From: Streptomyces sp. I6
GTDB taxonomy: Bacteria > Actinomycetota > Actinomycetes > Streptomycetales > Streptomycetaceae
Length of the DNA: 64,000 bases
Direction of reading: 5' to 3'
Assembly: GCA_003725745.1 (NCBI GenBank)
Contig: RHDP01000001.1
Coordinates: 1,395,501-1,459,500, forward strand
Shown here: positions 1,731 through 63,740 of the stretch, piece by piece
Layout: every line of letters starts with the position of its first letter
Numbering within the stretch: position 1 is the first letter of the stretch
Notes under the pieces: generated by a model
The model's input: the letters and a program-made list of their open reading frames with translations, nothing else
Databases searched by the model: none
Told to the model about the DNA's origin: nothing
Position numbers and translations under genes: made by a program

Positions 1731-3030
1731 GTGGCGTCTCCCTCGATCTCCGCGACCTCGCCCGCGGCGTCCGCCGCCACCGAGGCGTCGGTCGCGGCGC
1801 CGCCGTCGGCGTCGTACAGCCCGAAGTAGCGGGCGGCGGTGTCCATGTCCTTGTCGCCCCGGCCGGACAGGCTGACCAGGATCAGCCCGTCCTTGCCGAG
1901 TTCGTGGCCGAGTTCGATCGCGCCGGCCAGGGCGTGCGCGGACTCGATGGCCGGGATGATGCCCTCCGTGCGGGAGAGCAGCCGCAGCGCCTGCATGGCG
2001 GCGTCGTCGGTCACGGCCCGGTACTCGCCGCGTCCGGAGTCCTTGAGGTACGCGTGCTCGGGGCCGATGCCCGGGTAGTCCAGACCGGCCGAGATCGAGT
2101 ACGGCTCGGTGATCTGGCCCTCGTCGTCCTGGAGGACGTAGCTGCGCGAGCCGTGCAGGATGCCCGGCTCGCCCGCGGTCAGGGTGGCCGCGTGCTCGCC
2201 GGTCCCGACCCCGTGGCCCGCGGGCTCGCAGCCCACCAGGCGCACGCTCTCGTCCGGGATGAACGCGTGGAACAGGCCGATGGCGTTGGAGCCGCCGCCG
2301 ACGCAGGCGACGGCGGCGTCCGGGAGACGCCCCGCGCGCTCCAGGATCTGGCGCCGGGCCTCGACGCCGATGACCCGGTGGAAGTCGCGGACCATTGCCG
2401 GGAAGGGATGCGGGCCGGCGACCGTACCGAAGAGGTAGTGGGTGTGGTCGACGTTGGCGACCCAGTCGCGGAACGCCTCGTTGATGGCGTCCTTCAGGGT
2501 GCGGCTGCCGGACTTCACCGGCACGACCTCGGCGCCGAGCATGCGCATCCGGGCGACGTTCAGCGCCTGGCGCTCGGTGTCGATCTCGCCCATGTAGATG
2601 GTGCAGTCGAGGCCGAAGAGGGCGCAGGCGGTGGCGGTGGCCACACCGTGCTGACCGGCGCCGGTCTCGGCGATGACACGGGTCTTGCCCATGCGCCGGG
2701 TGAGCAGCGCCTGCCCCAGCACATTGTTGATCTTGTGCGAGCCGGTGTGGTTGAGGTCCTCGCGCTTGAGGAAGACCCGCGCGCCGCCCGCGTGCCCGGC
2801 GAACCGTGGCACCTCGGTCAGGGCACTGGGCCGGCCGGTGTAGTGGACGAGCAGGTCGTCGAGTTCGGCGGCGAAGGCCGGGTCGGACTTGGCCTTGTCG
2901 TACTCGACGGCCACCTCGTCGACGGCGGCGACGAGCGCCTCGGGAATGAACGTGCCGCCGAACTCGCCGAAGTAGCCGGCGGCGTCCGGCACCCGGCCCT
3001 CGGGTCGGGAACGAAGTATTGGCTGGGCAT
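1727..3030 (-). CDS. trpB: Tryptophan synthase beta chain (one-base frame break near 5' end)
   Basis: PLP enzyme that condenses indole with serine to give tryptophan. The PLP lysine lies in HTGSHKINN, the phosphate loop is GGGSNAIG, and [12 protein letters not shown] is also typical. The start is ATG at 3030, seven bases after a strong GAGGAG ribosome-binding site, giving [10 protein letters not shown]. The frame then breaks at about 2997-3004 and resumes as [12 protein letters not shown]. One extra base there gives the usual ...[14 protein letters not shown]... and a length of 1305 bases (434 aa). Without it only an internal start at 2992 is available. The break looks like an assembly error rather than a mutation. 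The gene overlaps trpA by 4 bases and follows trpM by 70 bases. Confidence 0.95.
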
Positions 3031-3100
3031 GCCAGAACTCCTCGTGTGCGTGTGAGCCGAAGAGATGGTGGGTGATGACGTGCGGTGCCGAGCGGATCGC

Positions 3101-3319
3101 TCAGCGGCGCCATCGCATGCCGTTGACCTGGCCGGGCTCGTCCCCGATGACGTATCTGACCCGTCGTCCGTGCACCCGCCGGGCCGGGGCGCGGCAGCCG
3201 CGCGGACGGCAGCCGCGCGCCAGCGGGGCGTGCGGTTCGCCGGCACCCGCCGCCGCCCGGCCCGGCCGGTGGAGGCCGGGGGCGGTGGCGGTGGGCGTGC
3301 GGCGGACGACGGCGGTCAT
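3101..3319 (-). CDS. trpM: TrpM, small actinobacterial trp-cluster protein
   Basis: A 72-aa, Arg-rich protein between trpC and trpB. Its C-terminal half (GCRAPARRVHGRRVRYVIG and GDEPGQVNGMRWRR) matches my recollection of the streptomycete TrpM/TrpX family, which is described as modulating tryptophan levels and differentiation. No catalytic motif or membrane segment is visible. ATG start at 3319; the trpC stop lies 8 bases upstream, so it is co-transcribed. The N-terminal third looks poorly conserved, so the true start could be internal. Confidence 0.75.
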   Translation of the reverse strand: MTAVVRRTPTATAPGLHRPGRAAAGAGEPHAPLARGCRPRGCRAPARRVHGRRVRYVIGDEPGQVNGMRWRR

Positions 3320-3327
3320 GGAGCGGG

Positions 3328-4136
3328 TCAGTCCCTGCCCTGCCGCAGCGCCGGGTGGGCGCCGGCGGCGACCAGATCGGCCACCGCGGCCTTCGGGTCA
3401 CGGCCGGTGACCAGGGACTCCCCCACCAGCACCGCGTCGGCGCCGGCGTTGGCGTAGGCGATCAGGTCGTGCGGACCGCGGATGCCGGACTCGGCGATCT
3501 TGACGACTCCCGCGGGAATCTCGGGGGCGACCCGCTCGAAGGTGGACCGGTCGACCTCGAGGGTCCTGAGGTTGCGCGCGTTGACCCCGATGATCTTGGC
3601 TCCGGCGTCCACGGCCCGCTCGACCTCGTCCTCGTCATGGACCTCGACGAGCGGGGTGAGCCCGATGGACTCGGCGCGCTCGATCAGGGAGACGAGGGCC
3701 TGCTGGTCGAGTGCGGCGACGATCAGCAGGACCAGGTCGGCACCGTACGCACGGGCCTCCCACAGCTGGTACGACGTCACGATGAAGTCCTTGCGGAGCA
3801 CCGGCACGTCCACCCGGGCCCGCACGGCTTCCATGTCCTGGAGCGAGCCGCCGAACCGGCGCTGCTCGGTGAGGACGGAGATGACGGCCGCGCCGCCCGC
3901 CTCGTAGTCGGCGGCCAGCCCGGCGGGGTCGGCGATGGCGGCGAGCGCGCCCTTGGACGGGCTGGAGCGCTTCACCTCGCAGATGACCTTCACGCCGTCG
4001 CCGCGCAGCGCGGCGACACCGTCCTTGGCCTGGGGCCCTTGGCCGCACGCTCCTTGAGTCCGTCGAGGCTGACGCGCGCCTGCCGCTCCGCGAGGTCGGC
4101 GCGCACGCCGTCGATGATCTCGTCGAGCACACTCAC
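3328..4136 (-). CDS. trpC: Indole-3-glycerol phosphate synthase (one-base frame break)
   Basis: It closes the indole ring of CdRP to give indole-3-glycerol phosphate. Motifs seen: [13 protein letters not shown] (catalytic Lys and phosphate binding), VLRKDFIV (second catalytic Lys) and GVNARNL. The N-terminus reads [17 protein letters not shown] from GTG at 4136. It then leaves frame at the G run 4032-4035, where one extra base restores [15 protein letters not shown] and 810 bases (269 aa). It is the first gene of trpC-M-B-A. The 170 bases upstream hold the only obvious promoter space; I see no Trp-rich leader peptide. No trpF accompanies it, which fits the use of PriA. Confidence 0.95.
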
Positions 4137-4308
4137 GCGAGCGGCCCCTTCCGGGAGGTTGATGATGGATCACTGTCGGCAATCCCGATGGTATCCGGAT
4201 ACGGGCGATGGCTCCGCATCCGGTTGACGCCGATCCCACTACCTGGGACTTCTTTCGCGGTTCCACCTGCGATTCTCTCGCAAATCCGCCCGAGAGCCCG
4301 CCCGGGAC

Positions 4309-5066
4309 TCAGGGTGCGAGCCCCGAGCCGAACGGCAGGTTCCGGACAACCGTGAAGACGGCGAGGACCGCGCCGAGACCCCACCACCAGGCGGGTCCGA
4401 GCGTGATCCGCACCGGTTTCGCCCTGACGGCGCGGACGAGCCAGAAGACCCAGAGCACGGCGAAGAGCAGATAGCCGGCGACGGCGAGCGCGTTGGCGCC
4501 GACGGCGGTGCCCAGCTCGCCGTGGACGAACGCGTGGGCGCTCCGCAGTCCGCCGCAGCCGGGGCAGTAGATGCCGGTCAGCTGGAGCAGCGGGCAGACG
4601 GGGTAGTGGCCGGGCTCGTTGGGGTCGACGGCGCCGACGTAGGCGAAGGCCCCGGCGACGGCGGCCAGCGCGGCCAGCGGCGGCGCGAGCCTGCGGTGCA
4701 CCGGCTGGGGACGGTCCGGGCGCGGGGGCGGCGGAACCGGCCGGTGGTGGTGCCCGGGCGGGTCCGCCGGCACGGGCCCGGGTCCCGCCGCGGCGGCGGG
4801 GGACGAGCCCGGCGCAGGGGACGAGCCCGGCACGGGAGACGGGCCCGGTGCGGGGGCGGGTCCCGCCGCGACGGCGGGGACGAGCCCGGCACGGGAGACG
4901 GGCCCGGTGCGGGGGCGGGTCCCGCCGCGACGGCGGGGGACGAGCCCGGCACGGGAGACGGGCCCGGTGCGGGGGCGGGTCCCGCCGCGACGGCGGGGGA
5001 CGAGCCCGGCACGGGGGATGGTCCCGGCGCGGGGGCGGCGGCAGGCGCCTCCCCTCCGCGGTTCAT
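4309..5066 (-). CDS. DUF2752 membrane protein with Pro/Gly repeat tail (frame break)
   Basis: Its function is unknown. The C-terminal half is a DUF2752-type membrane domain: a hydrophobic helix, then PVCPLLQLTGIYCPGCGG (paired Cys and a CPGCG knuckle), then further transmembrane helices. The N-terminal cytoplasmic tail is Pro/Ala/Gly/Ser rich and made of 20-aa repeats encoded by 60-bp repeats. The first repeat copy is 59 bp long, having GGGG at 4876-4879 where the others have GGGGG. Restoring that base joins tail and domain into one 252-aa frame. The ATG at 5066 is chosen; a GTG at 5090 is possible. It sits ahead of trpC with the small membrane gene at 5152-5412, but nothing links it to Trp synthesis beyond position. 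Confidence 0.75.
4820..5036. repeat. 60-bp tandem repeat, about 3.6 copies, coding
   Basis: The word GACGAGCCCGGCACGGG starts at 4820, 4879, 4939 and 4999, giving spacings of 59, 60 and 60 bp. The unit is a multiple of three and encodes a Pro/Ala/Gly-rich 20-aa unit in the DUF2752 gene. The short copy lacks one G of a five-G run. Confidence 0.95.
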
Positions 5067-5151
5067 GGCTTCCACCCCGCGATTGTCCACGGTGGTACGC
5101 AGCGGCGCAGCCCGGGCTCGCCGGGCCGCGCCGTGGACGGGGACCTCGCGG

Positions 5152-5412
5152 TCAGGAGGCCGTCGCCTCCGCCGCCACCGGCTGCCCGGCCGGGGTACGG
5201 GCCGGGACGGCCGCGGCCGTCTCCTTCTGTCCGAGGCCGGCGGCCTTCATCGCGGCACCGACGACCCCGCCGGCGAGGATCACGGCCATGCCGGCCCAGA
5301 ACCCGAGCGGGTTTGCGGCCACCATGAAGACTCCCGCGATGCAGAAGCCGATGAAGGAGATGGTGACGCCGGTCCAGGCGGCCGGGGTGTGTCCGTGGCT
5401 GCTGCCCGCCAT
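5152..5412 (-). CDS. HGxxPAAW-type small two-helix membrane protein
   Basis: An 86-aa protein of unknown function. The N-terminus MAGSSHGHTPAAWTGV holds the HGxxPAAW motif that names this actinobacterial family. Two hydrophobic helices follow (about residues 17-35 and 40-58), then an Ala-rich tail. ATG start at 5412 with AGGAG a few bases upstream. It lies between the Trp-associated membrane gene and the DUF2752 gene on the same strand. Its retention next to trp genes suggests co-expression only. Confidence 0.85.
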   Translation of the reverse strand: MAGSSHGHTPAAWTGVTISFIGFCIAGVFMVAANPLGFWAGMAVILAGGVVGAAMKAAGLGQKETAAAVPARTPAGQPVAAEATAS

Positions 5413-6310: not shown

Positions 6311-6317
6311 GCCCCCA

Positions 6318-9534: not shown

Positions 9535-10304
9535 TCAGCGGACGGGGTGCCCCGCCTCCCGCAGCGACTGCTTGACCTGGGAGATGCGCAGATCGCCGAA
9601 GTGGAAGACGGAAGCGGCGAGCACCGCGTCCGCTCCGGCCGCGATGGCGGGGCGAAGTCGGCCAGTCTGCCCGCGCCGCCGGAGGCGATCACCGGGACCG
9701 TGACGTGCCTGCGGACGGCCTCGATCATCCCGGTGTCGTAGCCGTCCTTGGTGCCGTCCGCGTCCATCGAGTTGAGCAGGATCTCACCCGCGCCCAGTTC
9801 GGCGGCACGGTGGGCCCATTCGACAGCGTCGATGCCGGTGCCGCGGCGGCCGCCGTGGGTGGTGACCTCGTAGCCGGACGGTGTGGAGGTGCCCTCCGGG
9901 GTGCGGCGGGCGTCGACGGAAAGCACCAGCACCTGGCGGCCGAAGCGCTCGGCGATCTCGCGGATCAGCTCGGGCCGGGCGATGGCCGCCGTGTTGACGC
10001 CGACCTTGTCGGCGCCCGCCCGCAGCAGCTTGTCGACGTCGTCCGCGGAACGGACCCCGCCGCCGACGGTGAGCGGGATGAACACCTGCTCGGCGGTGCG
10101 GCGCACGACGTCGTAGGTGGTCTCCCGGTCACCGGACGAGGCCGTGATGTCGAGGAAGGTGAGTTCGTCGGCACCCTCCGCGTCGTACAGCTTGGCCATC
10201 TCGACGGGGTCGCCGGCGTCGCGCAGGTTCTGGAAGTTGACGCCCTTGACGACCCGGCCCGCGTCCACGTCCAGGCAGGGGATGACTCGGACGGCGAGGG
10301 TCAT
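9535..10304 (-). CDS. hisF: Imidazole glycerol phosphate synthase cyclase subunit (one-base frame break)
   Basis: It uses ammonia from HisH to turn PRFAR into imidazole glycerol phosphate plus AICAR. Motifs: [16 protein letters not shown] (catalytic Asp), [26 protein letters not shown], and [16 protein letters not shown] (second catalytic Asp). The frame breaks at GGGG 9649-9652 after [11 protein letters not shown]. One added base gives [19 protein letters not shown] and a normal end HPVR, with 771 bases (256 aa). ATG start at 10304 overlaps the ridA stop by 4 bases. Confidence 0.95.
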
Positions 10305-10698
10305 GCGGTCCCTCCCCGGTACGCCTCGACCTCGACCTCGACGACCAGCCGGGGTCGACGAAGCCCGAGACGATGAGCATCGACGAGGCCGGGCGCACGG
10401 CGCCGAACAGTTCCTTGTGGGCCCGGCCGACCTCGTCGACGTCCCGGGCGTGCGTGATGTACATGCGGGTGCGCACGACGTGCTCGCTGCCCAGGCCGAG
10501 CCGCTTCAGCGCGGCCAGCGCCGCGTTGAAGGAGTTGACGGCCTGCTCGTACGGGCCGCCGTCGACGACCGCGCCGTCGACGATCGACGTGCAGCCGGAG
10601 ACCAGTACCAGGCCGTTCGGCAGCTCGACGGCCCGGGAGTACCCGAAGGCGTCCTCCCAGGGGCCTGCGGAACCGACGCGCCGGATCTCGTCGCTCAC
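10301..10698 (-). CDS. RidA/YjgF-family protein inside the his operon (frame break)
   Basis: RidA-family trimeric enamine/imine deaminase fold, about 132 aa. It reads [20 protein letters not shown] from GTG at 10698, then [33 protein letters not shown] and [12 protein letters not shown]; the Arg of VRTRMYI is the usual carboxylate-binding residue. The frame breaks at GGGG 10351-10354, where one base restores [16 protein letters not shown] and a stop overlapping hisF ATG. It overlaps priA by 4 bases upstream. Its place between priA and hisF suggests clearing of reactive imines from this or nearby PLP reactions; this is inference. Confidence 0.9.
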
Positions 10699-11425: not shown

Positions 11426-12066
11426 TCAGAGGGTCTCGATCCAGTTGGTGAGCAGCTGGGCTCCGGCGTCGCCGGACTTCTCGGGGTGGAACTGGGTCGC
11501 CCACAGCGCGCCGTTCTCGACGGCCGCGACGAAGGGCTCGCCGTGGGTGGCCCAGGTGACCTTCGGGACGGCCATGGCCGCACTGGTCACCTCGAAGTCC
11601 CACTCGCGTACGGCGTAGGAGTGCACGAAGTAGAAGCGGGCTCCGGCGTCGAGGCCGGCGAACATCTCCGAGTCCCCGGGGCCTTGACGGTGTTCCAGCC
11701 CATGTGCGGCACGACCGGGGCGTTCAGCGGGCCGACGACGCCGGGCCACTCGTCGAGGCCCTCCGTCTCGACTCCGTGCTCGATACCGCGCTCGAAGAGG
11801 ATCTGCATGCCGACGCAGATGCCCATGACGGGACGGCCGCCGGAGAGCCTGCGGTCGACGACCCAGTCGCCGCGGGCCTGCCGCAGCCCGGTCATACAGG
11901 CCGAGAAGGCGCCGACGCCGGGCACCAGCAGCCCGTCGGCGTTCATGGCCGCATCGAAGTCGCGGGTGATCTCGACGTCCGCGCCGGCCCGGGCGAGGGC
12001 GCGCTCGGCGGAGCGGACGTTGCCGAAGCCGTAGTCGAAGACGACGACGCTCTTCCGTCCGCTCAT
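11426..12066 (-). CDS. hisH: Imidazole glycerol phosphate synthase glutaminase subunit (one-base frame break)
   Basis: Class I glutamine amidotransferase that feeds ammonia to HisF. The nucleophile Cys is in [14 protein letters not shown]; His and Glu of the triad are in [14 protein letters not shown]; the oxyanion region is [11 protein letters not shown]. The frame breaks in CCCCGGGG at 11674-11681 between WNTVKAP and [20 protein letters not shown]. One base restores it, giving 642 bases (213 aa). ATG start at 12066 overlaps the stop of the small membrane gene (ATGA). The IGP-synthase partner HisF is four genes downstream by transcription order. Confidence 0.94.
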
Positions 12067-12823: not shown

Positions 12824-13987
12824 CGCTTCTGCTCCTTCGGGGTGTGGGGGTGTCCCCCACCGGACTCTTCAGTGCGCGCACCGCATCGAGGAACGCGTCG
12901 TTCTCTTCGGGGGTGCCCGCGGTCACCCTCAGCCGGCCCGGTACGCCGTTGTCGCGGACCAGCACGCCCGGTCGAGGATCTTCTGCCAGGCGGCGTGCGC
13001 GCCCCCCTCGCCGTCGAACCGCCCGAACTGGACGAAGTTGGCGTCGGAGTCCGTCACCTCGTAGCCGATGTCGCGCAGCCCGGTGACCAGCCGGTCCCGC
13101 TCCTCCTTGAGCTGCTCCACGTAGGTCAGCAGCGCGTCGGTGTGCTCCAGAGCGGCCAGCGCGGTGGCCTGGGTCACGGCCGAGAGGTGGTACGGGAGCC
13201 TCACCAGCTGCAGGGCGTCGACCACGGCGCGGTGCGCGGCCAGATAGCCGAGGCGCAGTCCCGCGGCGCCGAAGGCCTTGGACATGGTGCGTGAGACCAC
13301 GAGGTTGGGCCGGCCCTCGAGCAGCGGGAGCAGGGAGGGGCGGTGGCTGAACTCGACGTACGCCTCGTCCACGACGACGAGCGCACCCGCCGTGTCCGCC
13401 CTGGCCTGCTGGGCGGCGTCGTACAGCGCGAGGACCGTTTCCGGCGCGACGGCGGTGCCGGTGGGGTTGTTGGGCGAGGTGATGAAGACGACGTCGGGCC
13501 GGTGCCCGGCGATCGCGTCCGCCGCCGCCTTCTCGTCGATGGTGAAGTCGTCGTGGCGCGGGCCGGAGACCCAGCCGGTGCCGGTGCCGCGCGCGATCAG
13601 CGTGTGCATCGAGTACGACGGCTCGAAGCCGATGGCGGTACGCCCGGGCCCGCCGAAGGTCTGCAGCAGCTGCTGGATGACCTCGTTGGAGCCGTTGGCC
13701 GCCCACACGTTCTCCGGCCCGACCGGGTACTTCCCGGTGCGGGTGAGGTACCCGGCCAGCTCGGTGCGCAGCTCGACCGCGTCCCGGTCCGGGTAGCGGT
13801 TGAGGCCGCGCGCGGCCTCGCGCACCCGCTCGGTGATCCGCTCGACGAGCGGTTCGGGCAGCGGGTAGGGGTTCTCGTTGGTGTTCAGCTGCACGGGCAC
13901 GTCGAGCTGCGGCGCGCCGTACGGCGACTTGCCGCGCAGCTCCTCGCGGATGGGCAGATCGTCGATGCCGATGTCGGTCGTGCTCAC
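12820..13987 (-). CDS. hisC: Histidinol-phosphate aminotransferase (two frame breaks)
   Basis: PLP-dependent aminotransferase of His synthesis. Motifs: [41 protein letters not shown], and [17 protein letters not shown], which holds the PLP Lys. The frame breaks at CCC 12967-12969, where one base turns ILDRACW into [19 protein letters not shown]. After [12 protein letters not shown] a second missing base in the G run 12839-12842 is needed to end in PKEQKR with a stop overlapping hisB ATG. With both, the length is 1170 bases (389 aa). The second site is inferred from the stop/start overlap and is less certain than the first. GTG start at 13987 overlaps hisD. Confidence 0.92.
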
Positions 13988-15425
13988 TTGCTCGGGGGCA
14001 CCTTCCCGTCACTGTGCTTGTCCGGTTCGTCTCCGGCACTGTGCTTGTCCGGGTCGCCTCCGGCGCTGTACTTGTCCGGGTCGCCTCCGGCACTGCGCTT
14101 GTCCGGTCCGCCTCCGTCGAAACGCGCCTTGACGGCGGCGCCGTGCGCCGGGAGGTCCTCCGCCTCGGCGAGGGTCACCACGTGGTGGGCGACGTCGGCG
14201 AGTGCCTCGCGCGTGTAGTCGACGATGTGGATGCCGCGCAGGAAGGACTGGACGGACAGGCCGGAGGAGTGGCAGGCGCAGCCGCCGGTCGGCAGCACGT
14301 GGTTGGAGCCGGCGCAGTAGTCGCCGAGGGAGACCGGCGCCCAGGGGCCGACGAAGATCGCTCCCGCGTTGCGGACCCGGCCGGCCACGGCGGCCGCGTC
14401 GGCGGTCTGGATCTCCAGGTGCTCGGCGCCGTACGCGTCGACGACGCGCAGGCCCTCGTCGATGCCGTCGACCAGGACGATCGCGGACTGCCTCCCGGAC
14501 AGGGCGGGGACGATCCGGTCCGCGACGTGCTTGGTCGCGGCGATCTGCGGCGCCAGTTCTCGCTCGACCGCGTCCGCGAGCTCGGGGGAGTCGGTGACGA
14601 GCACGGCGGCGGCCAGCGGGTCGTGCTCGGCCTGGCTGATGAGGTCGGCGGCGACGTGGGCGGGGTCGGCGGTGGCGTCGGCGAGTACCGCGATCTCGGT
14701 CGGGCCGGCCTCGGCGTCGATGCCGATACGGCCGGTGAAGTAGCGCTTGGCGGCGGCCACCCAGACGTTGCCCGGACCGGTCACCATGTTCGCGGGCGCA
14801 CACCCGTCGGGCCCAGAGGTGCCGTACGCGAACATCGCGACGGCCTGGGCGCCGCCCACGGCGTACACCTCCTCGACGCCGAGCAGCGCGCAGGCGGCGA
14901 GGATGGTCGGGTGCGGCAGCCCGCCGAACTCCTTCTGCGGCGGTGAGGCGAGCGCCACGGACTCGACGCCGGCCTCCTGCGCCGGCACGGCGTTCATGAT
15001 CACGGACGAGGGGTAGACCGACCGGCCGCCCGGCGCGTACAGGCCGACGCGTCCGACCGGAACCCACTTCTCGGTCACCGTGCCACCCGGCACGACCTGG
15101 GTGGTGCGGGTCTCGCGGCGCTGGGCGCGGTGCACGGTCCGCGTCCGGCGGATGGACTCCTCCAGGGCGTCCCGGACGGCGGGGTCAAGCTGCTCCAGCG
15201 CCTCCACGAGGGCCTTCTCGGGCACCCGTACCCGGTCCAGCGTGACGCCGTCGAACCGCTCCGCGTACTCGATCAGCGCCGCCGTCCCGCGATGATGCAC
15301 GTCCTCGCAGATGGGCCGCACCTTCTCCAGGGCGGCCTCCACGTCGAACTCGGCACGGGGAAGCAGGTCGCGCAGCGCGGCGCCCTCGGGAGGGCGTCGC
15401 CGCGGAGGTCGATACGAGAGATCAC
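13984..15425 (-). CDS. hisD: Histidinol dehydrogenase with repeat-extended C-terminus (frame break at 5' end)
   Basis: It oxidises histidinol to histidine in two NAD steps and uses Zn. Motifs: [41 protein letters not shown] (catalytic Glu/His region) and SNHVLPTGG. The start is GTG at 15425, giving [15 protein letters not shown]. One base is missing at GGG 15388-15390 before [15 protein letters not shown]; with it the length is 1443 bases (480 aa). After the usual end ([11 protein letters not shown]) there is an extra tail of about 45 aa made of nine-residue units such as GGDPDKHSA. Being outside the catalytic core, the tail is probably tolerated rather than functional. First gene of the his run. 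Confidence 0.95.
14011..14118. repeat. 27-bp tandem repeat, 4 copies, in the 3' end of hisD
   Basis: The word CTTGTCCGG recurs at 14017, 14044, 14071 and 14098, exactly 27 bp apart. In the hisD frame each copy encodes nine residues (GGDPDKxSA type). The copies differ by a few substitutions but keep frame, so the array extends the HisD C-terminus without breaking it. Confidence 0.95.
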
Positions 15426-15675: not shown

Positions 15676-17281
15676 TTGACCGAGCCGCAGGGCGTCGACA
15701 TGCCCAACGATCTCACCACGGCGGAACGCACCATGTGGACCTCGTTCGAATACGGCATGACCTGCGATCTTCGCGACGGCAATCCGCTGCTGAACGATCC
15801 CTTCTCGGAACTGGAGTGGGGCCCCGGACGGAGCGTGCGCGCCGACGTGATCGCGCTGCTGCTGCTCAGCGGCCCGCCCGCACGTCCGGGGCGGGTCAGC
15901 GCGCTGAAGCTGCTGGGCGCGTACGTGACGGGGAAGCTCACCCTCGCGGGCGGCACGATCGGCCCGTACGTCGAGCTGACCGGGTGCCGTTTCGAACGCG
16001 AGCTGACGCTGCCGGAGTCGCGGTTCTCCACCCTGCGGCTGGTGGGGTGCGCGATACCGCGGCTGGAGGCCGCCCGGCTGCACACCGAGGGCGATCTGCA
16101 TCTGCCGCGCTGCCGCATCGAGCACGGGATACGGCTCACCGACGCCCATATAGGCACGGATCTGCTGATCAACCAGATCCGGGTGCGGCCGGACCGGCTC
16201 GGCCGGGCCATCACCGCGGACGGCCTGTCCGTGGCACAGGACCTCCAGGCCGAGCTGATCGAGACGTACGGGGAGGTCAGTCTGCGCGGAGCGAAGGTCG
16301 GCGTGTCGCTGAGCCTGCGCGGCAGCCGGCTGCGGGCGGTCGAGGGCCGGCGCGCGCTCAACGCCCCCAGCTGACGGTGGAGCGCTCGCTGTACCTGACC
16401 AGGGCGTGGGTGGACTCCGCCGGCGACCAGGGCGCCACTCCCCCGTTCGGCCTCTCCTTCGACACGCCGGGGCACGGGGCCGGTGCGCGGGAGCAGCACT
16501 TCGAGTGCCACGGCGCGGTGCGGCTGGACGACGGCCGCTTCGGCGACGCCGTCGACCTCCACCACGCCCGGTTCGTACTGTCGGGAGCGCGCCGGGAGGA
16601 GCTGTCGCTGCGCCGGATCGTCACCCCGAACTCCGGTTCACCGCGGAGCGGCCGGAGCAGGGCCGTGTGGTGCTGAACGGCGCGAGGGTCGTCACGCTCA
16701 TCGACCTGTCCACGAGCTGGCCCGGTCCGGGCGGGCTGGCGATGGGCGGCTTCGTCTACGAGAACCTCGTGCCCTACAGCCGCTTCCCGCTCTCACGGCG
16801 GCTGGAGTGGCTCGCCGCGGCCACCCCCGAGTACCAGCCGGAGCCGTACGAACGGCTGGCGACCGTGCTGCGCGGCAGCGGGGAGGACGCCGACGCCCGG
16901 GAGGTGCTCCTCGCCAAGCAGCGCCGCCGCCGGGAGACGCTGCCGCTCGCCGCGAAGCTCTGGGGTTATGTCCAGGACTGGACGGTGGCGTACGGCTACC
17001 GCCCGGGCCGCGCGGCGCTGTGGATGGCGGTGCTCTGGGCGGCCGGTGCGGTGGCCTTCTCCCGCTACGCCCCCGAGGCGCTGAAGCCGGGCGAGCAGCC
17101 TGAGTGGAATCCCTCGCTCTACGCCCTCGATCTGCTCCTGCCGGTGATCAATCTCGGGCAGGACGGCCACTGGCGGCTGGAAGGCCACTGGCAGTGGCTC
17201 GCCGCGGCGCTGGTGCTGCTGGGCTGGATACTCGCCACGACGGTGGCGGCGGGCGCGTCCCGGCTGCTGAGGCGCAGCTAG
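15676..17281 (+). CDS. Beta-helix-like membrane-anchored protein (often named membrane-associated oxidoreductase); two frame breaks
   Basis: The N-terminal two thirds repeats a short pattern of hydrophobic-x-Gly-x-x-Leu (for example LLGAYVTGKLTLAGG, GPYVELTGCRFERELTL, VSLRGAKVGVSLSLRG), as expected of a right-handed beta-helix or pentapeptide-like fold. The C-terminus has a helical linker and two transmembrane helices (AALWMAVLWAAGAVAF and WLAAALVLLGWILATTVA). I see no NAD or flavin motif, so the oxidoreductase name is not supported. The frame breaks at CCCCC 16364-16368 and CCCC 16624-16627; two added bases give 1608 bases (535 aa). A TTG start at 15676 is chosen because GAGGGAG lies 6 bases upstream; ATG 15700 is the alternative. 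Confidence 0.75.
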
Positions 17282-24776: not shown

Positions 24777-24931
24777 ATGGCCAAGAACAAGAACCGAGAA
24801 CGCAAGGCCCGAGCGGCTCCCCCGCCGAGCGCGGCACCCAGGAGGCCCGGACCCCGGAGGTCCAGGCGGAGGTGCCGATGGCGACGGGCACGCCCCACAA
24901 GGGGCGGCAGAAGCGCTTCGGCCACAACTGA
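24777..24931 (+). CDS. Small basic protein ending KGRQKRFGHN (one-base frame break)
   Basis: ATG 24777 behind GGGAGG (7 bases) gives MAKNKNRERKAR. The frame then breaks at CCCCC 24819-24823, and the shifted frame reads AERGTQEARTPEVQAE and ends TPHKGRQKRFGHN. One added base joins them into a 51-aa protein, 156 bases in all. I recall streptomycete small proteins with the same beginning and end. Its high charge suggests RNA or ribosome contact, but no function is known. The following 16-bp hairpin supports a real transcript end. Confidence 0.7.
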
Positions 24932-34990: not shown

Positions 34991-36081
34991 ATGGAGAACG
35001 TGCTTCGCCCGTTGATCGTCCTCGTCGGCTCTGTGCTCCTCACACTGCTGCTGGGGTGGCTCACCGACCGGCTGCTGCGCCGTGCGGACGTCCGCCACAG
35101 CGATACACCGCTGTGGGGCCTCCTCCGCCGCTGCCGGGTGCCGCTGCAGGTGGTGGTGCTGGCCGCGCTGCTGCGAGGGACCTACACGGAGACCGCCATC
35201 ACGATCATCGAGGAGAACGAGGGCCTGATCGGTCATGTCCTGACACTGGTCCTGATCGCCGCGTCGGCCTGGCTGGTGGTGCGGATCGCCACTGCCGTGG
35301 TGGAGGCCTCGTACTCCCGCTTCGCGGCAACCTCCCGGGACCTGGCACGGGTGCGCCGGGTGCGCACCCAGGTCGCACTGGTCCAGCGGATCGTCACCGC
35401 CGTGGTCGCCGTGGTGGCCGTCGCGGCGATGCTGCTCACCTTCCCCGGCATGAACAAGCTGGGCGCCTCGCTGCTGGCCTCCGCCGGTGTCCTCGGCATC
35501 GTCGCCGGTGTAGCGGCCCAGTCAACCCTGGGCAACCTCTTCGCCGGCTTCCAGATCGCCTTCGGCGACATGGTGCGCATCGGGGACACCGTCGTCGTGG
35601 ACGGCGAGTGGGGCACGGTGGAGGAGGTGACGCTCACCTTCCTCGCGGTGCGGACCTGGGACGAGCGGCGGATCACGATGCCGGTGTCGTACTTCACCAG
35701 CAAGCCGTTCGAGAACTGGTCGCGCGGCGGCGTGCAGATGACCGGCACGGTCTTCTTCCACCTCGACCACACGGCACCGGTGCACCAGATGCGCGAGAAG
35801 CTGCACGACGTCCTGCGCGGGTGCCCGGCCTGGGACGGCCGCGACTGGTCGCTCGCCGTCACGGACACCACCCGAACACCATGGTGGTCCGGGCCGTGGT
35901 CACCGCGAAGGACGCGAACGACATCTGGACGGTGCGGTGCGCTGTGCGCGAGCAGCTGATCACCTGGCTCTGCGACCACCACCCGTACGCCCTTCCCCGC
36001 ATCGCCACCTCCCAGGCGGTCCCCCCGCCCGCGGTGCACACCCAGCCGGAGACGCCCACCCAGCGCACCGGCCGGGGGTAG
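34991..36081 (+). CDS. MscS-family mechanosensitive channel (one-base frame break)
   Basis: Small-conductance mechanosensitive channel, corrected length 363 aa. Hydrophobic helices run through residues about 5-27, 48-67, 80-100 and 130-150. The pore helix is ASLLASAGVLGIVAGVAAQS and the conserved beta-domain entry is TLGNLFAGFQIAFGDMVRIGD. The cytoplasmic part contains RITMPVSYFTSKPFENWSR. The frame breaks at CCC 35871-35873; one base restores PNTMVVRAVVTAKDANDIW and a Pro-rich tail, 1092 bases in all. ATG at 34991 lies only 23 bases from a divergent start. Confidence 0.9.
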
Positions 36082-36186: not shown

Positions 36187-36932
36187 CTAGTGGCCGCGCT
36201 CCGCACCCCCGTTGACCTGGACGACCTGGGACGTGATGTGGGACGCGGCGTGGGAGGCCAGCCAGCGGAGGGTCTGGGCGACGTCGCCGGGACGGCCGGC
36301 CCGGCCGGTGGACGTCTCGGCGATGAGCTGCCTGCGGCGGTCCTCCTCGATCCCGTCGCCGAAGAACCCGGTCTCCTCGACGTAGCCGGGGCCACCAGGT
36401 TCACCGTGATGCCGCGCGGCCCGAGCCGGCGGGCCAGGTCGTGGGCGTAGGGGTGCAGGGCCGCCTTGGAGGCCGCGTACGGGGGCGAGCCGGACCCCCG
36501 GTAGGCCGCGATGGAGCTGAGGAAGAGGACGCGGCCGCCGGGTGTGGCCAGATGGCCCTCCAGGGCCTCGGTGAGGAGCGCCGCGGTGAGGGTGTTGAGA
36601 CGGAAGTTGAGCATCCAGTCGTGGGCGGCCTCCTCCAGCGGGTCCTCGCTTGCGGCACGCCCCTCCAGCCTGCCGCTGCCGCCCGCGCTGTGCACCAGCA
36701 CGTCCACCGTGCCGTACTCCCGCGCGGCGAACCGAGCGGCCCGGTGGGCGCCCCGGGGCTCGCTGAGGTCCGCGGCGCAGTAGCGTGCGCCGGGAATCCG
36801 CTCGGCCGCCCGTGCGAGCACCTCCTCGCGCCGCCCGAGCAGCAGCACCCGCTCACCGTCCGCGGCGAACGCCTCCGCCGCCGCCAGCCCGATTCCGGTA
36901 CCCCCGCCACTGATCACCACGGTGCGCGCCAT
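36187..36932 (-). CDS. Short-chain dehydrogenase/reductase (one-base frame break)
   Basis: Classical SDR, 248 aa when corrected. The NAD(P)-binding motif is VVISGGGTGIGLAAAEAF, then LLGRREEVLARAAERIP, DVLVHSAGGSGRLEGR (the NNAG position) and FLSSIAAYRGSGSPPYAASKAAL with catalytic Ser, Tyr and Lys. The frame breaks at GGGG 36388-36391 after NLVAP; one base gives GYVEETGFFGDG, then GRPGDVAQTLRWLAS and SQVVQVNGGAERGH, ending at 36187. ATG start at 36932. It converges with MscS. The substrate is unknown. Confidence 0.9.
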
Positions 36933-37019: not shown

Positions 37020-38604
37020 TCAGCGCAGACTGCGCATGTCCAGGTGCTGCAGGACGCGGTCGACGACCTCGGGGTCCACGCCCGGCTCGCTGCGCGCGGC
37101 GAGCACCTCGTGCCGGGCGGCCGACAGCAGTTCGCGCTGCACCCGCAGGAACGTCCGCTGCCGGCCCGCCCGCCTGGTGAACCACTCACGGCGCTCCTCG
37201 TCGACGATGTCCGGACTGATCCGGGTACCGATGTCGTACGCCGCCCGCTGAAGCCGGTCCCCGACGTCCTCCGGCAGTTCCTCGACCTCCTCGATCTCCT
37301 TCAGCCGGCGCTTGGCTGCCCGCGCCGCGCGCAGCGCGAGGTCACGCTCCAGCGCGCGTTCGGCGCCGGTGTCGGCATGTACGCCGAGCCGCTTGACGAG
37401 CCAGGGCAGCGTCAGCCCCTGGAGGAGCAGGGTCGTCATGATCACCGCGAAGGCGATGAAGACGATCACGTCCCGGCCCGGGAACGGTGATCCGTCCTCG
37501 GTGCGCAGCGGGATCGCCAGGGCCAGCGCGACCGAGGCCACGCCCCGCATCCCGGACCACCACATGACCACGGTCTCGCGCCAGCCGACGGGAATCTCCT
37601 CGTCGTAGTCGCGGCGCCGGTGGAGCCGCTTGGTGAGCCAGGTGGCGGGCAGCAGATACAGCAGCCGTACTCCGATGACGGTGGCGACGACGAACACGGA
37701 CCCGCCACAAGCCGTCCGCCCAGGCTGTCGGCGGTGCCGAACACGTGGTAGAGCTCCAGCCCGATGAGGCCGAAGGCGACACCGGTCACCAGGGTGTCCA
37801 CGACCTGCCAGAAGGTGTTGCCCGCGAGCCGCCAGAGCACGTCGTCGGCCTCGACGGCGTGCTCGGCCAGATAGAGGGCGGTGACCAGCACCGCGAGCAC
37901 ACCGGAGCCGAGCAGGTCCTCGGCGATCACATAGCTGACGAACGGCACGAGCAGGGTGAGCCCGATCTGCAGGGTCGGCTCGTCGAGCAGGCCCATCAGC
38001 CACGTGGAGAGCCGGCCGAGCGCGAGTCCGACGACCACGGCGACGACGCCGGAGAGCACGAGCTCACCGGCGGCCCCGGGCCACGAGAACGTGCCGCTGA
38101 CGACCGCGCCGACCGCCACGTGGTACAGCACGATCGCGGTGACGTCGTTGAACAGCCCTCGCCCTCCAGGATCGACACGAGTCTGCGGGGCAGCCCGAGG
38201 GATCCCGCCACGGCGGTCGCGGCGACCGGGTCCGGCGGAGCCACGAGCGCGCCCAGGACGACCGCCGCGGCGATCGGCAGCGCGGGGAAGACCGCCTGCG
38301 CGACGGCCGCGACGGCGGTGGTGGTGACGAGGACCAGCGCTACGGCGAGCAGCATGATCGGCCGGATGTTCGCGGTGAACTGCCGCCAGGACGTGCGCTG
38401 GACGGCGGCGTACAGCAGCGGGGGGAGCAGCAGCGGGAGGATGAGATCGGGCGGGAGGGCGACGTTCGGGACGAAGGGCAGCAGGGCGAGGACGGCTCCG
38501 AGGAGCGTCATCAGCACCGGCGCGGGCAGCCCGAGCCGCTCCCCGAGCGGCACGGTGACCACGGCCCCCAGCAACAGCACGAACAGCAGAGCCAGTTGGT
38601 CCAC
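37020..38604 (-). CDS. Na+/H+ antiporter, CPA1/NhaP type (two frame breaks)
   Basis: Monovalent cation/proton antiporter with about 12 transmembrane helices and a charged helical C-terminal domain, corrected to 528 aa. Ion-site motifs: LGALVAPPDPVAATAVA and ILEGEGLFNDVTAIVLY, the latter spanning the first break. Single bases are missing at CCC 38156-38158 and CCC 37701-37703. Adding both gives 1587 bases and joins LGGRLVAG to SVFVVATVIGVRLLYLLP. Later MWWSGMRGVASVALALAIP is the usual conserved helix. It starts at 38604. It probably contributes to pH and salt homeostasis. Confidence 0.9.
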
Positions 38605-41143: not shown

Positions 41144-42528
41144 TCAGCCCCGCCGCTCCTGCTTCTGCTTGTCCTCCACACACAGGGTCGCCCGGGGAAT
41201 GCCTGCATCCTGGCCTTCCCGATCGGGTTCCCGCACACCTCGCACAGGCCGTAGGTACCCGCGTCCAGTCGGTGCAGGGCCCGCTCGGTCTGCTCGACCA
41301 TCTCGCGGGAGTTGGCGGCCAGCGCCATCTCGTGCTCCCGCGTGATGTTCTTGGTACCGGTGTCGGCCTGGTCGTCCCCCGCTCCGTCCCCGGAGTCCCG
41401 CATCAGCCCGGTCAGCGCCTCCTCGGAGTGGCTGATCTCCGCCACCAGCCGGGCCAGCTCGCTCTCCAGCTCAGCGCGCGCCTCGGCGACCTCGTCGGGC
41501 GTCCACGGGTCCTCCCCCGGCCGTACCGCGAGGTCCCCCGGTGCCGCGGCGACACGGGCCTGCGGCACCGGCGGCGCGGTGTCCTCAGCGGCCGTGGCGG
41601 ACCCGCCCGCGCTCTTCTTGGCTGCCACCGTCCTGGCTCCTGTCTGCTCCGCGGCCTCGGCCGCTTCCTCGGCCGCCCTGGCGGCCTTCCCGGCGCCTGC
41701 CCTCGCAGCCGCCTTCCTACCGGACACCTTCCCGGCCGGCGCCTTCTCCGCGGCGGCCGCCTCGCCTGCCGCGGACTTCTTCCCGGCCGCGGCCTTCCTC
41801 GCCACCGCGGTCTTGGGTGCGCTCTCGGCCTTCTTCGCCACCGCGGTCTTCGGTGCGGCCCCGGTCCTTGCCACCGCGGCCTTCTTCGCCGCCGCGGTCT
41901 TCGGTGCGGCCCCGGTCCTCGCCGCCGCCGTCTTCTTCGCCGCCGCCGTCTTCGGTGCGGCCCCGGTCCTCGCCGCCGCCGTCTTCTTCGCCGTGGCGCT
42001 CTGCTTCGCGGCCGCCGCGGTCCTGCCCGCGCCGGAGGTCCTCGTGCCCGCGTCCGCGCTCCGCGCCGCGCCGGCGCTCTTCGAGCCGGCGCCCGTCTTC
42101 GCCGCGGCCCGGGCCGTCGCCTTCCTCGCCGCCTTGCGGCCCGGCTCCTTCGCGGGCCCGGCGGTCGCTCCGCCAAGCCCCGCCGCCTCCTCGGCCGGGT
42201 GCTCCCGGGCACGGCCCTTCGACCCCCTCGCCGCCGCGGGCCGCCCCGTGCCGGCGGACCGGGCCGTGGCGGACCGCCTGGCCGACGTTGTGCTCCTCCG
42301 CGCGGTGCTCCTCGGGGGCTCAGCAGCCTTCCCCGTGGTCTCCGCGGAGCCGCCGGCACCGGCTGCGGTGTGCGCGTCCGCACCGGAGGTGACCTCCTCG
42401 GCCACCCTCCCGGCGGTCTTCTTCGCGACGACGCGCTTCCTGCCGTTCGTCTCCTTGGCCGCCGCCCCCGCAGCGGCGGTGGTCCTTGCTGACGCCGTCT
42501 TCTTCACGGCGGTCTTCTTCGCCACCAT
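41144..42528 (-). CDS. DksA/TraR zinc-finger protein with histone-H1-like Lys/Ala tail (one-base frame break)
   Basis: A 461-aa corrected protein. The first 330 residues are Lys/Ala/Arg-rich and histone H1-like, starting MVAKKTAVKKTASARTT and containing 17-aa repeats. The C-terminal 120 residues are a DksA/TraR domain: EVAEARAELESELARLVAE, the coiled region, then the C4 zinc finger CEVCGNPI...CVED. The frame breaks at GGGG 41194-41197 inside the finger; one base restores ARMQAFPRATLCVEDKQKQE and 1386 bases. ATG 42528 follows GAAGGGG by 8 bases. DksA-like domains bind RNA polymerase and the tail should bind DNA; a chromatin-linked transcription role is inference. Confidence 0.85.
41835..41990. 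repeat. 51-bp tandem repeat, about 3 copies, in the histone-like tail
   Basis: CTTCGGTGCGGCCCCGGTCC begins at 41848, 41899 and 41950, exactly 51 bp apart. Each copy encodes a 17-aa unit with AAPKTAAAKK and AAARTG. Shorter, more diverged units flank it. Confidence 0.92.
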
Positions 42529-46753: not shown

Positions 46754-47832
46754 TCAGTTGTCGTCCTCGTCGATGAGGAATCCGCGCATCGGCGACGGCG
46801 CCTGCTGCATCGGCTGCGGGCCGCCCTGCGGCCGGACCGGCGCCATCGGCTGGGTCATCGCCGGGGACATCTGCTGCTGACCGCCGTAGGACGGGGCGCC
46901 GCCCATGCCCTGGTTGCCGCCCATCGTCTGGTTGCCGCCGAACGACGGGGCACCGGCGCCGGCCGGAGCCATCGAAGGCGACGGGGGCAGCGAGGCGGCC
47001 GCCGGCGTCCGCGGCGGGGCCAGCGAATCGTCGGCCTGGGTCTCCAACTGGCGCAGCTGGCTCTCCAGGTACGACTTCAGGCGTGTGCGGTACTCGCGCT
47101 CGAAGCCGCGCAGGTCCTCGACCTTGCGCTCCAGCGTGGCGCGGGCGGACTCCAGCGAGCCCATCGCGACACGGTGCTTCTCCTGAGCGTCCCGCTCCAG
47201 CGCGTCGGCCTTGGCGCGGGCGTCCCGCTCCAGACCCTCGGCGCGCGAACGGGCCTCGCCGACGATCTTGTTGGCCTCGGAACGGGCCTCCGCGATCGCC
47301 TGGTCGGCGGTCTGCTGCGCCAGCGACAGCACACGTGCGGCGCTGTCTCCGCCCGGGCCCTGGCCCGGCAGCTGCGGACCGCCGTGACCACCCATCGGTC
47401 CGCCCATCGGGCCGCCCATGGGACCGCCCTGCATCGGGCCCGGACCCATCGGTCCGCCCTGCGGGTGACCCTGGGGACCGTGGCCACCGGGACCGGCCGG
47501 CAGCTGAGGAGCACCACCGGGCAGCTGGGGGGACCCATCTGCGGGGGCTGCTGCTGGACCGGGGGTCCGGATATGGCGGCGGGAACGGGAGCCCCGGGAC
47601 CGCGGCCGTCCTGCGGCTCCGGCGGCTTGCGCATCCCCTGCTGCTGGTTCTGAGCGGCCGCCCGGGTCGCCGCCGCCAGCTTCGCGCGCAGGTCCTCGTT
47701 CTCCCGGAGGAGGCGCGTCAGCTCGGCTTCGACCTCGTCGAGAAAGGCATCGACCTCGTCCTCGTCATAGCCTTCTCGGAGGCGGACGGTCGTGAACTGC
47801 TTGTTCCGCACGTCCTCGGGGGTCAGCGGCAT
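46754..47832 (-). CDS. divIVA: DivIVA (Wag31-type) polar growth protein (one-base frame break)
   Basis: Coiled-coil protein that marks hyphal tips and directs apical wall growth; essential in streptomycetes. The N-terminal membrane-binding domain is MPLTPEDVRNKQFTTVRLRE, then EDEVDAFLDEVEAELTRLL. A Gln/Pro/Gly-rich linker follows, then a long coiled coil (SLAQQTADQAIAEARSEANK, ARAKADALERDAQEKHR) and a Gly/Met/Gln tail ending RGFLIDEDDN. The frame breaks in the linker at GGGGGG 47527-47532; one base gives 1080 bases (359 aa). The ATG at 47832 is fixed by the conserved N-terminus. Last gene of the fts/ylm series. Confidence 0.94.
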
Positions 47833-55434: not shown

Positions 55435-56942
55435 TCAGGCGCGCTCGGCGGCGAGGGCGCGGACCGCGTCCGCGAACGCCTCGCCTCGCTTGTTGTAGTT
55501 GGCGAACATGTCCATGGAGGCGCAGGCGGGGGCCAGCAGGACCGTGTCCCCGGGCCGCGCGAGCCGTGCCGCCTCGCGGACCGCCGCCGACATCGCCCCA
55601 GTGTCGGTCCGGTCGAGGCCGACCACCGGGACCTCGGGGGCGTGTCGCGCCAGCGCTTCGGCGATCAGCGCGCGGTCCGCGCCCATCAGCACCGCGCCGC
55701 GCAGCCGCTTCGCGGACCTTCCGACGAGTTCGTCGAACGTCGCGCCCTTGGCCAGACCGCCCGCGATCCAGACGATCGGCTCGTAGGCCGCCAAGGACGC
55801 TTCCGCGGCATGGGTGTTGGTGGCCTTGGAGTCGTCCACGTACGCGACGCCGTCGACGTCGTCCACGTACTCGATGCGGTGCGGGTCGGGGCGGAACGCC
55901 CGCAGCCCGTCCCGTACCGCGGCCGCCGGGACCCCGAAGGCGCGCGCCAGGGCGGCCGCGGCGAGGGCGTTGGCGATGTTGTGCGGGGCCGGGGGCCCGG
56001 CGCCCGCCCCCCGCGAGGAGGACGCTCCGATGTCGGAGACCTCGGCGAGTTCCTGCGCCTGCTTCTGCCGGTTCTCGACGAAGGCGCGGTCGACGAGGAT
56101 GCCGTCCACGACGCCGAACTGCGAGGGGCCGGGCGTGCCGAGGGTGAAGCCGACCGCGCGGCAGCCCTCGACGACGTCCGCCTCCCGCACCAGGGCCTCG
56201 GTGGCGGGGTCGGCGGCGTTGTAGACGCAGGCGACCGTGTTGCCTTCGTAGACGCGGCCCTTGTCGGCGGCGTACGCCTCCATGGAGCCGTGCCAGTCGA
56301 GGTGGTCCGGAGCGAGGTTGAGGACGGCGGCGGAGTGGGCGCGCAGCGAGGGGGCCCAGTGCAGCTGGTAGCTGGAGAGCTCGACGGCGAGCACGTCGTA
56401 CTCCTCTCCGCCGAGCACCGCGTCCAGGAGCGAGACCCCGATGTTCCCGACGGCCGCGGTCTTCAGCCCCGCGGCCGTCAGGATCGAGGCGAGCATCCGC
56501 ACGGTCGTGGTCTTGCCGTTGGTGCCGGTGACGGCGAGCCAGGGTGCCGCCCGGCCGCCGTCCGTCCCGCGCAGCCGCCAGGCCAGTTCGACGTCGCCCC
56601 AGACCTCGGCGCCCGCCGCGGCGGCCGCCGCGAAGAGGGGCTTGCCGGGATTCCAGCCGGGCGCGGTGACGACCAGCTCGGTGCCCTCGGGCAGGGTGTC
56701 GCCGTCACCGAGCCGGACGGTGATGCCCGCCCGCCGGCCGCCACCGCCGTCGTCGTTCGAGGCGCTGTGCGCCGCCCCCGGGACTCCAGCTCAGCCGCCT
56801 GTGCCCGGGCGCCCTCGTCGTCGCGGTCGTCGACGACCGTGACGACCGCGCCGAGGCCGTGCAGGACGCGGGCGGCCGGGATGCCGCTCACGCCCAGCCC
56901 GGCGACGGTGACGTGCTTGCCCTGCCAGTCCCGCGTGCTCAC
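55435..56942 (-). CDS. murD: UDP-MurNAc-Ala:D-Glu ligase MurD (one-base frame break)
   Basis: Adds D-Glu to UDP-MurNAc-L-Ala; corrected 502 aa. The N-terminus is [20 protein letters not shown], followed by the Rossmann part. The ATP site is [20 protein letters not shown]. Later blocks are [20 protein letters not shown] and [20 protein letters not shown]. The frame breaks at CCCCC 56776-56780, between AAELESRG and [10 protein letters not shown]; one base gives 1509 bases. GTG 56942 overlaps mraY by 4 bases. The essential role argues that the break is an error. Confidence 0.95.
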
Positions 56943-59446: not shown

Positions 59447-61143
59447 TCATCCCCCACTGTTGTTCTTGCGGCTGTGCTCGATCGCCTCGCGGAGCACCCG
59501 GCGGTCGTCGAAGGGGCGGACCACCCCGGCGATGTCCTGCCCCTGCTCGTGCCCCTTGCCGGCGATCAGCACGGTGTCACCGGGCGCGGCGCGGGCGACG
59601 GCGGCCGCGATGGCGGCGGCCCGGTCCTCCTCCACGAGCACGTCGCCGCGCTTGTGCGCGGGTACCTCCGCCGCGCCCGCGAGCATCGCGGCGAGGATCG
59701 CGAGAGGGTCCTCGGAACGGGGGTTGTCCGAGGTGAGGACGGCGGTGTCGGCGTAGCGGGCGGCGGCCGCGCCCATCGGGCCGCGCTTGGTCCGGTCGCG
59801 GTCGCCGCCGCAGCCGAGCACGATGTGCAGTCTGCCCTCGGTGACCTTGCGCAGGGAGCGCAGGACCGATTCGACCGCGTCCGTCTTGTGCGCGTAGTCG
59901 ACCACCGCGAGATAGGGCTGGCCGGCGTCGACGCGCTCCAGCCGGCCGGGGACGCCCGGTACCGCGGCGACACCGTCGGCCGCGGTCTGCGGGTCGATGC
60001 CCGCGACGGCGAGGGCGACGATGGCGGCGAGGGTGTTGGCGACGTTGAAGGGGCCCGGCAGCGGGGCCTTGGCCCGCACCCGCTCGCCCTCGGGGCCGAC
60101 GGCGGTGAACGTGGAGCCGAGCGGGCCCACTTCGACGCCGTCGGCGCGCCAGTCGGCGTCGGGGTGGCCTTCGGCGGAGAACGTGACGACGGGGATCGAG
60201 GACTCCCCCACCAGCCGCTGCCCGTACTCGTCGTCGAGGTTGACGACACCCCGCCGGGCGCGCGCCGGGGTGAACAACTGGGCCTTCGCCTGGAAGTAGT
60301 CCTCCATGCCGGAGTGGAACTCCATGTGCTCCGGCGAGAGGTTGCTGAAGACGGCGACGTCGAACACGCAGCCGTCGACCCGGCCGAGCACCAGGGCGTG
60401 GCTCGACACCTCCATGGCCACCGACTCGACGCCGCGCTCGCGCATCACGGCGAACAGGGCCTGCAGATCGGTGGCTTCGGGGTGGTGCGCTCCGACTTGA
60501 TGCGCTCCTCGTCGATGCGCATCTCGACCGTGCCGATCAGGCCGGTGCGGCGGCCGGCGCCGCGCAGGCCGCCCTCGACGAGGTACGCCGTGGTGGTCTT
60601 GCCGGAGGTGCCGGTGATGCCGATCTGCAGCAGCGCCCGTCCGGGGCGCCCGTAGATCTCGGCCGCGAGTTCTCCCATGATGCCGCGCGGGTCCCCGGTG
60701 ACCAGGACGGGCAGCCCGGTCCCGGCGGCGCGCTCGGCACCCGCCGGGTCGGTGAGGATCGCAGCGGCGCCGAGATCCCTGGCCTGGGCGACGTAGTCGG
60801 CGCCGTGCAGCCGGGCGCCGGGCAGAGCGGCGTAGACGTCTCCGGGGCGCACCGCGCGGGAGTCGTGCGTGATGCCGGTGACCGCGCCGGAGCCCGGGGG
60901 CTCGACCCCCAGCCGGGCGGCCAGCTCTGCGAGGTCGGTCGGGCGGACCTCGGCCGGACGGGGAGGGGCGGTTCGGTACTGATCAGCTTGTGGCACGGCG
61001 GTGAGCGTACCGGCAGTACCGGGACCGGCGCTAAATGAGGGGCCTTCCCGGGGTCCGCGGTCGCCCGGGGAGGGGGTGCCGGCGGGCGGGGGCGGGGCGG
61101 ACCCCGGGGAGCGGTTCCCGGGGTCCGGCGTGATGGTTGTCAC
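59447..61143 (-). CDS. murE: UDP-MurNAc-Ala-Glu:diaminopimelate ligase MurE (one-base frame break)
   Basis: Adds diaminopimelate (LL form in streptomycetes) to the stem peptide; corrected 565 aa. There is an unusually long Pro/Gly-rich N-terminal stretch (about 70 residues) before the catalytic domains. ATP site: IGITGTSGKTTTAYLVEGGL. Substrate loop: TSDNPRSEDPLAIL. The frame breaks at GGGG 60479-60482 inside ERTTPEATDLQALFAVM; one base joins the halves and gives 1698 bases. GTG 61143 (VTTITPDPGNRSPG) lies 17 bases after the ftsI stop. Confidence 0.95.
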
Positions 61144-63125: not shown

Positions 63126-63129
63126 TGCG

Positions 63130-63740
63130 TCACCTGCCGGGGGTCGTGGGAGACGGCTGCGGCGCGCCGGACGCGGGGGCTGCGGCGCGGAGGGTGCCGC
63201 GGGCGCCGCGGGTGCGCCGGCGGCCGACGGCTCCGGTGGGGCGGGAGCCGGCGGGGGCGCGCCGGACGGCTGCACGGGTGCGGACGGCTCGGCGGTTGCG
63301 GACGGCTGCACGGGCAGGGGCGGGCCGACCGGGCGGGGCGGCGGCTCCGAGTGCCGGACGGCCGACGGGTCGGCCTTCGCCCGCTTCGGGATCCCGCGGA
63401 CCGTGCCGTCGGGGCCGAGGAAGGCGGGGTTGCCGCCCGGCACCATGCCGAGTTCGCGCGCCCGCCGCTCCAGTGCGTCCGGGGCGGAGCGCTCGTCCAC
63501 GTCCCGCTGCAGCGCCTGCTCCTGGTCGGTGAGTTCGGTGGTCTTCTTCCTGAGTTCGCTCAGTCTGAACGAGCCCTCGTTGAGGGAGGTGTTGAGCAGC
63601 AGCAGGGTGATCAGCCCGCCGCCGAGCAGCACGACGACCAGCAGGACGAAGGGGGTGCGGGCCGCGGTGCTCGGCCCGGACGGCATGAGCCGGGCGAGCC
63701 GGGCGGCACGCCCCTTCAGCTGTCCGGCGGGCGTCCTCAC
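63130..63740 (-). CDS. ftsL: Cell division protein FtsL-like (one-base frame break fuses it to ftsI)
   Basis: Bitopic divisome scaffold, corrected 203 aa. Basic N-terminus (VRTPAGQLKGRAARLARLMP), one helix (FVLLVVVLLGGGLITLLLLN), then a coiled-coil/leucine zipper (SLNEGSFRLSELRKKTTELT, QEQALQRDVDERSAPDALER) and GMVPGGNPAFL. A Pro/Ala tail follows. One base is missing in GGGGG 63175-63179. With it the tail ends SPTTPGR and a TGA at 63130-63132 (612 bases), just ahead of ftsI. GTG 63740. FtsL forms a complex with FtsQ and FtsB. Confidence 0.9.

Follow-up and report, generated by a model that had tools for sequence, protein, structure and literature searches.

Long-read consensus sequences carry homopolymer indels that lead to frameshifts (PMC9262707), and residual homopolymer deletions in long-read bacterial assemblies have been described to frameshift or fragment genes (PMC12007338, PMC9262707, PMC8812927). 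In one such assembly, of a genome with 59% G+C, false deletions dominate the indels, most of them follow runs of four to five bases, and A/T runs are hit more often than G/C runs (PMC12007338). Within the genus Streptomyces, a PacBio assembly of Streptomyces albus SM254 required the correction of 205 indels in 7.17 Mb by Illumina polishing, nearly all of them in G or C runs (PMC4832174). The fault described below for the assembly of Streptomyces sp. I6 is of the same kind as those already published for long-read assemblies. It resembles that of PMC12007338 in consisting mostly of false deletions that frameshift genes; however, nearly all longer runs in the present DNA are G/C, so that the base preference is not comparable. 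With the S. albus assembly, it shares the genus and the concentration of indels in G or C runs, but its density (0.32 losses per coding kb) is about eleven times higher by extrapolation, which would correspond to approximately 2,300 losses in the whole assembly.

The window, the complete stretch of 64,000 bases that we analyzed, lies within the Streptomyces chromosome (G000:C1:1395501-1459500), whose DNA has a G+C content of about 73%. The assembly comprises 7,054,598 bases in two contigs and has a completeness of 87.42%; six of the seven other listed Streptomyces genomes with one or two contigs reach 99-100%. The two-contig Streptomyces genome G010 also shows a completeness of only 93%, perhaps for the same cause. 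The nearest named relative found was Streptomyces pacificus CWH03 (G031), in a search that may omit the records closest to the genome of the window. The query used to find relatives was a long open frame that, according to our codon model, is probably antisense to a real gene; the loci obtained are nevertheless orthologous DNA. S. pacificus and the window are syntenic, most of their long alignments having an identity of 91-96%, and four further Streptomyces (G004, G005, G006, and G015) served as outgroups. Each site was compared with S. pacificus and the outgroups without adding any base, in windows of ±12 and ±25 around the site.

The initial annotation proposed at least 23 one-base losses in 19 genes of the window and suggested a close relative as a check. 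This comparison gave some support at every listed site, and S. pacificus shows the one-base loss at most of them. At 16 of the 23 sites, S. pacificus and two to four outgroups, which are all the relatives that align there, have one base more (modulo 3). On the reverse strand, these sites lie in trpB (2997..3004; Pfam PALP in the S. pacificus gene), trpC (4032..4035; IGPS), hisF (9649..9652; His_biosynth), the RidA-like gene ridA (10351..10354; Ribonuc_L-PSP), hisH (11674..11681; GATase), hisC (12967..12969; Aminotran_1_2), hisD (15388..15390; Histidinol_dh), an Na+/H+ exchanger gene with two losses (37701..37703 and 38156..38158; Na_H_Exchanger), a gene with a dksA/traR zinc-finger end (41194..41197; zf-dskA_traR), divIVA (47527..47532; DivIVA), and murE (60479..60482; Mur_ligase_M). 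All five relatives agree at each of them except trpB, where S. pacificus and three outgroups are one base longer and G005 did not align; at 37701, five of five agree in the ±25 window and three of five in the ±12 window, G006 and G005 being one base longer only in the former. On the forward strand, the set includes two losses in a gene of 535 amino acids without a Pfam match (16364..16368 and 16624..16627), one in phoD (32383..32386; PhoD, five of five relatives modulo 3), and one in a mechanosensitive-channel gene (35871..35873; MS_channel_2nd, three of three aligned relatives). The second site of the 535-amino-acid gene is supported by all five relatives; the first is supported by five in the ±12 window and three in the ±25 window, G015 and G004 being longer only in the former. 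Searches with tblastn matched trpC, hisF, hisH, hisC, the mechanosensitive-channel gene, divIVA, and murE in two frames, and the 535-amino-acid and exchanger genes in three.

The seven remaining sites have thinner evidence. S. pacificus is the sole support for a loss near the end of hisC (12839..12842, reverse strand), the second listed loss in phoD (position 32457, forward strand), and a loss near the end of an ftsL-like gene whose Pfam DivIC match is below the cut-off (63175..63179, reverse strand); the outgroup alignments, with large jumps at hisC and inconsistent lengths at ftsL among them, were left uncounted. For murD (56776..56780, reverse strand; Mur_ligase_M), the outgroup DNA jumps as well, and the S. 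pacificus alignment is joined by two-frame tblastn matches with both the S. pacificus and G015 proteins. A gene encoding a DUF2752 protein has one frame in S. pacificus and two in the window, with the loss in its repetitive N-terminal part (4876..4879, reverse strand; Pfam DUF2752), where the outgroups did not align; the exact position is uncertain owing to the tandem repeat. The proline-rich N-terminal repeat of this protein (window 4800-5030) is strongly divergent from that of S. pacificus. A small conserved gene of about 50-75 amino acids (24819..24823, forward strand) occupies a single frame in S. pacificus and the outgroups, and its two-frame reading in the window relies on a conserved start in one frame and a conserved end in another; a tblastn search with the G006 protein matched the window as one single-frame stretch at 44% identity. 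Finally, in a short-chain dehydrogenase gene (36388..36391, reverse strand) for which no relative aligned, the adh_short_C2 profile is split between two frames: its positions 6-185 match before the site, and positions 182-235 match in the other frame after it. S. pacificus lacks a counterpart of this gene (window 36100-36990) at the corresponding position.

The two losses initially listed for phoD both find support, but the count was too low, as about three more were found. Across 32386-32515, within 130 bases, phoD is a net five bases shorter than its S. pacificus counterpart, so that two losses, proposed as a minimum, were an undercount. Two losses fall in 32457..32470, with S. pacificus as the supporting relative; the one at 32470 is unlisted. 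Two further unlisted losses at 32504 and 32515 (32504..32515, forward strand) agree with all five relatives, each of which is longer by a net two bases in windows centered on 32515, as well as with the alignment and a second copy in the same genome. This second PhoD-like gene, about 91% identical to phoD (window 32304-34012), is located far away on the same chromosome (G000:C1:6776598-6778311), and two matching G4 runs have their full length there. This suggests a stochastic error that is not dictated by the sequence alone.

Beyond the listed sites, there is a candidate further loss at 5438, in a gene whose start is uncertain. An apparent net loss of four bases in the gene at 5736-5756 was rejected, as realignment gives a net difference of 12 bases, which is in frame. 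G/C runs outside predicted genes at window positions 4144, 28855, and 42681 are one base shorter than in S. pacificus in the pairwise comparison, as expected for errors blind to coding. The stretch at window 19881-19955 is a dispersed repeat: among the matches listed from eight genomes searched with window 1-20000, it recurs with approximately 74-94% identity at several to many places in four Streptomyces genomes and once in a fifth, one further, partial copy lies in the 464 kb compared below, and it gave no Rfam match.

The fault is present in the window, as initially described, but, judged from 464 kb around the window and two distant regions, it extends over the whole assembly, which corrects the earlier reading. 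We compared these 464 kb with 475 kb from contig C3 of S. pacificus (mean identity 92.5%), using genes predicted with our own simple codon model rather than an annotation. S. pacificus genes were retained (279 of 378) if they had a minimum of 300 bases, a codon score of at least 25, and a coverage of 97%, and gap clusters no more than 30 bases apart were merged. Seventy-six of these 279 testable genes (about 27%) contain at least one out-of-frame cluster, and 74 contain a loss cluster. Of the 105 out-of-frame clusters, 98 amount to a net one-base loss modulo 3 and the other seven do not, and 89 of the 90 isolated one-base events are losses, with a single gain. In the predicted genes of the window that align with S. 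pacificus, we found no uncompensated one-base gain, in keeping with the single direction noted initially. Out-of-frame clusters occur in all 18 aligning 25-kb bins, and losses also occur in two regions sampled about 2 and 4 Mb away from the window on contig C1: the stretch at 3.50-3.58 Mb has 10 isolated losses and no gain, with 8 of 33 genes broken, and in the mere 12 kb that aligned at 5.50-5.58 Mb, one of nine genes is broken, with one loss. The losses are thus spread over the assembly.

When genes matched by tblastn in two frames were counted (identity thresholds of 60% for S. pacificus against the window and 40% elsewhere), the window gave such matches for 10 of 53 queries from S. pacificus and 9 of 53 from G015, and none of five control pairs, each with 55-64 hits, had a gene split between frames. 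This test misses breaks near gene ends and, therefore, detects 10 of the 19 genes with S. pacificus queries. In 20 control pairs that did not include the window (coverage of 95%, gene ends ignored, clusters no more than 60 bases apart), zero to eight genes had out-of-frame clusters and zero to four isolated one-base events were seen; we take these clusters to be mostly alignment noise between more distant genomes. With the same settings, the window compared with S. pacificus has 13 of 48 genes out of frame, with 14 isolated losses and no gain; against the other relatives, it has 14-16 of 41-45 genes out of frame and 7-9 losses, with one gain in the comparison with G005. The converse situation, in which the assemblies of the relatives carry insertions and that of Streptomyces sp. 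I6 is correct, could draw on the fact that only one close relative covers the 464-kb comparison. However, the relatives that align, three to five genomes per site, all agree with one another at 16 of the 23 sites, and the genes of the relatives are in one frame, so we give this possibility practically no credence, the least of all those considered.

The losses depend strongly on run length. Only runs flanked by four identical bases on each side were counted. Among coding G/C runs, the share that had lost one base was 3/5573 for length 3, 14/1167 for length 4, 20/262 for length 5, and 11/31 for length 6, a rise from 0.05% through 1.2% and 7.6% to 35%. Non-coding G/C runs, taken as those lying outside any predicted gene with 300 or more bases and a score of at least 25 and hence including small genes, had lost one base in 5 of 197 (length 4), 6 of 52 (length 5), and 3 of 9 cases (length 6). 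At lengths 4 and 5, coding runs have nominally lower loss rates than non-coding runs, and the difference between the two sets is not significant (Mantel-Haenszel odds ratio 0.63, z -1.4), with small non-coding counts. Because a few gains and longer losses also occur among the non-coding runs, in line with natural indels between species, the comparison is a blunt one. As selection against frameshifts would push the coding rates far lower, we conclude that coding runs are not significantly spared.

The initial annotation placed all losses at G/C runs, which is mostly the case: 72 of the 98 losses lie no more than three bases from a G/C run of at least four in the assembly, compared with 8.4% of random coding positions. 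An exception is formed by 13 of the 89 isolated losses, which align to A or T of S. pacificus. Of the 73 coding losses that could be placed cleanly, 25 coincide with S. pacificus runs that are one or two bases long; 15 of these 25 have a G/C run of 4-6 no more than two bases away in the assembly, seven a run of three, and three a shorter one. A substitution adjoining a shortened run would produce the same appearance. Coding A/T runs number 58, 7, and 2 at lengths 3, 4, and 5, with no loss among them and about 0.3 predicted from the G/C rates; the clean comparison thus holds only nine coding A/T runs of length 4-5. Since this coding DNA has hardly any long A/T runs, the restriction to G/C runs carries no information. 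Accordingly, the sequencing artefact proposed initially as a homopolymer deletion bias gains support, but its G/C restriction is no evidence of a base-specific fault. No clear flanking motif was seen beside the shortened runs, whose counts are small.

The losses could instead be real, arising in a recent hypermutator or a decaying lineage with many new pseudogenes. Genuine one-base losses at runs also become more common with run length, and the nominally lower rate in coding runs would fit this reading as well. Against it, coding runs are not significantly spared, and gains are nearly absent (1 of 90). The broken genes include murD, murE, and divIVA, which are essential; the losses in these three, noted from the start, are supported by the relatives or by two-frame tblastn matches. 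Moreover, the broken genes retain a bias of substitutions toward third positions. The third-position share is 0.589 in the 74 broken genes, 0.635 in the 205 others, and 0.595 beyond the first break. This share is slightly lower in the broken genes but far from one third, and hence not that of relaxed constraint, although very recent breaks would be invisible to this measure; the frames were thus maintained until recently at least. Broken genes are also slightly more diverged (56.6 versus 50.0 substitutions per kb). Taken together, we consider real losses of this kind very improbable.

Coding constraint that persists past the breaks would also be expected if the losses were real and slippage at G/C runs, during translation or transcription, rescued them and left the proteins whole. 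In the sense strand, however, losses affect 17 of 616 G runs and 28 of 778 C runs, with no significant difference, which speaks against slippage on RNA. Non-coding runs are shortened as well, two matching G4 runs are complete in the second phoD copy, and the losses are absent from the compared relatives, whose frames are intact. We regard such a rescue as extremely improbable, and the strong form of this idea, a strain that decodes hundreds to thousands of one-base-short genes by slippage at G/C runs, as a shade less credible even than that.

The losses are almost certainly an assembly artefact, with the genes intact in the organism and short G/C runs under-counted in the consensus. They are, very probably, ordinary sequencing error rather than a property of the organism. 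We infer consensus deletion errors from the one-sided losses, their rise with run length, coding runs that are not significantly spared, constraint beyond the breaks, broken essential genes, the spread over the assembly, and the intact related assemblies. The one-sided loss, the run-length dependence, the apparent blindness to coding function, and the spread, each observed directly above, are the features expected of long-read homopolymer deletion errors, and the pattern bears the marks of an under-polished single-molecule consensus. The cause probably lies in base calling or consensus building for a long-read assembly made without enough accurate reads. In such a scenario, the genes would be whole in the organism, single-molecule reads would disagree on run length, and the consensus would settle on one base too few at G/C runs, with a chance of dropping a base that grows with run length. 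In DNA of this G+C content, short G/C runs would occur in many genes, and the observed share of tested genes would consequently be displayed out of frame.

The finding is a warning about an assembly record rather than a discovery. About one-quarter of the tested genes would pass as pseudogenes or fragments, so that claims drawn from this assembly need to be checked against relatives first, in particular those of missing genes, auxotrophy, truncated proteins, and odd overlapping reading frames. The rate of loss by run length, compared between coding and non-coding DNA, offers a simple means of telling such errors apart from real losses.
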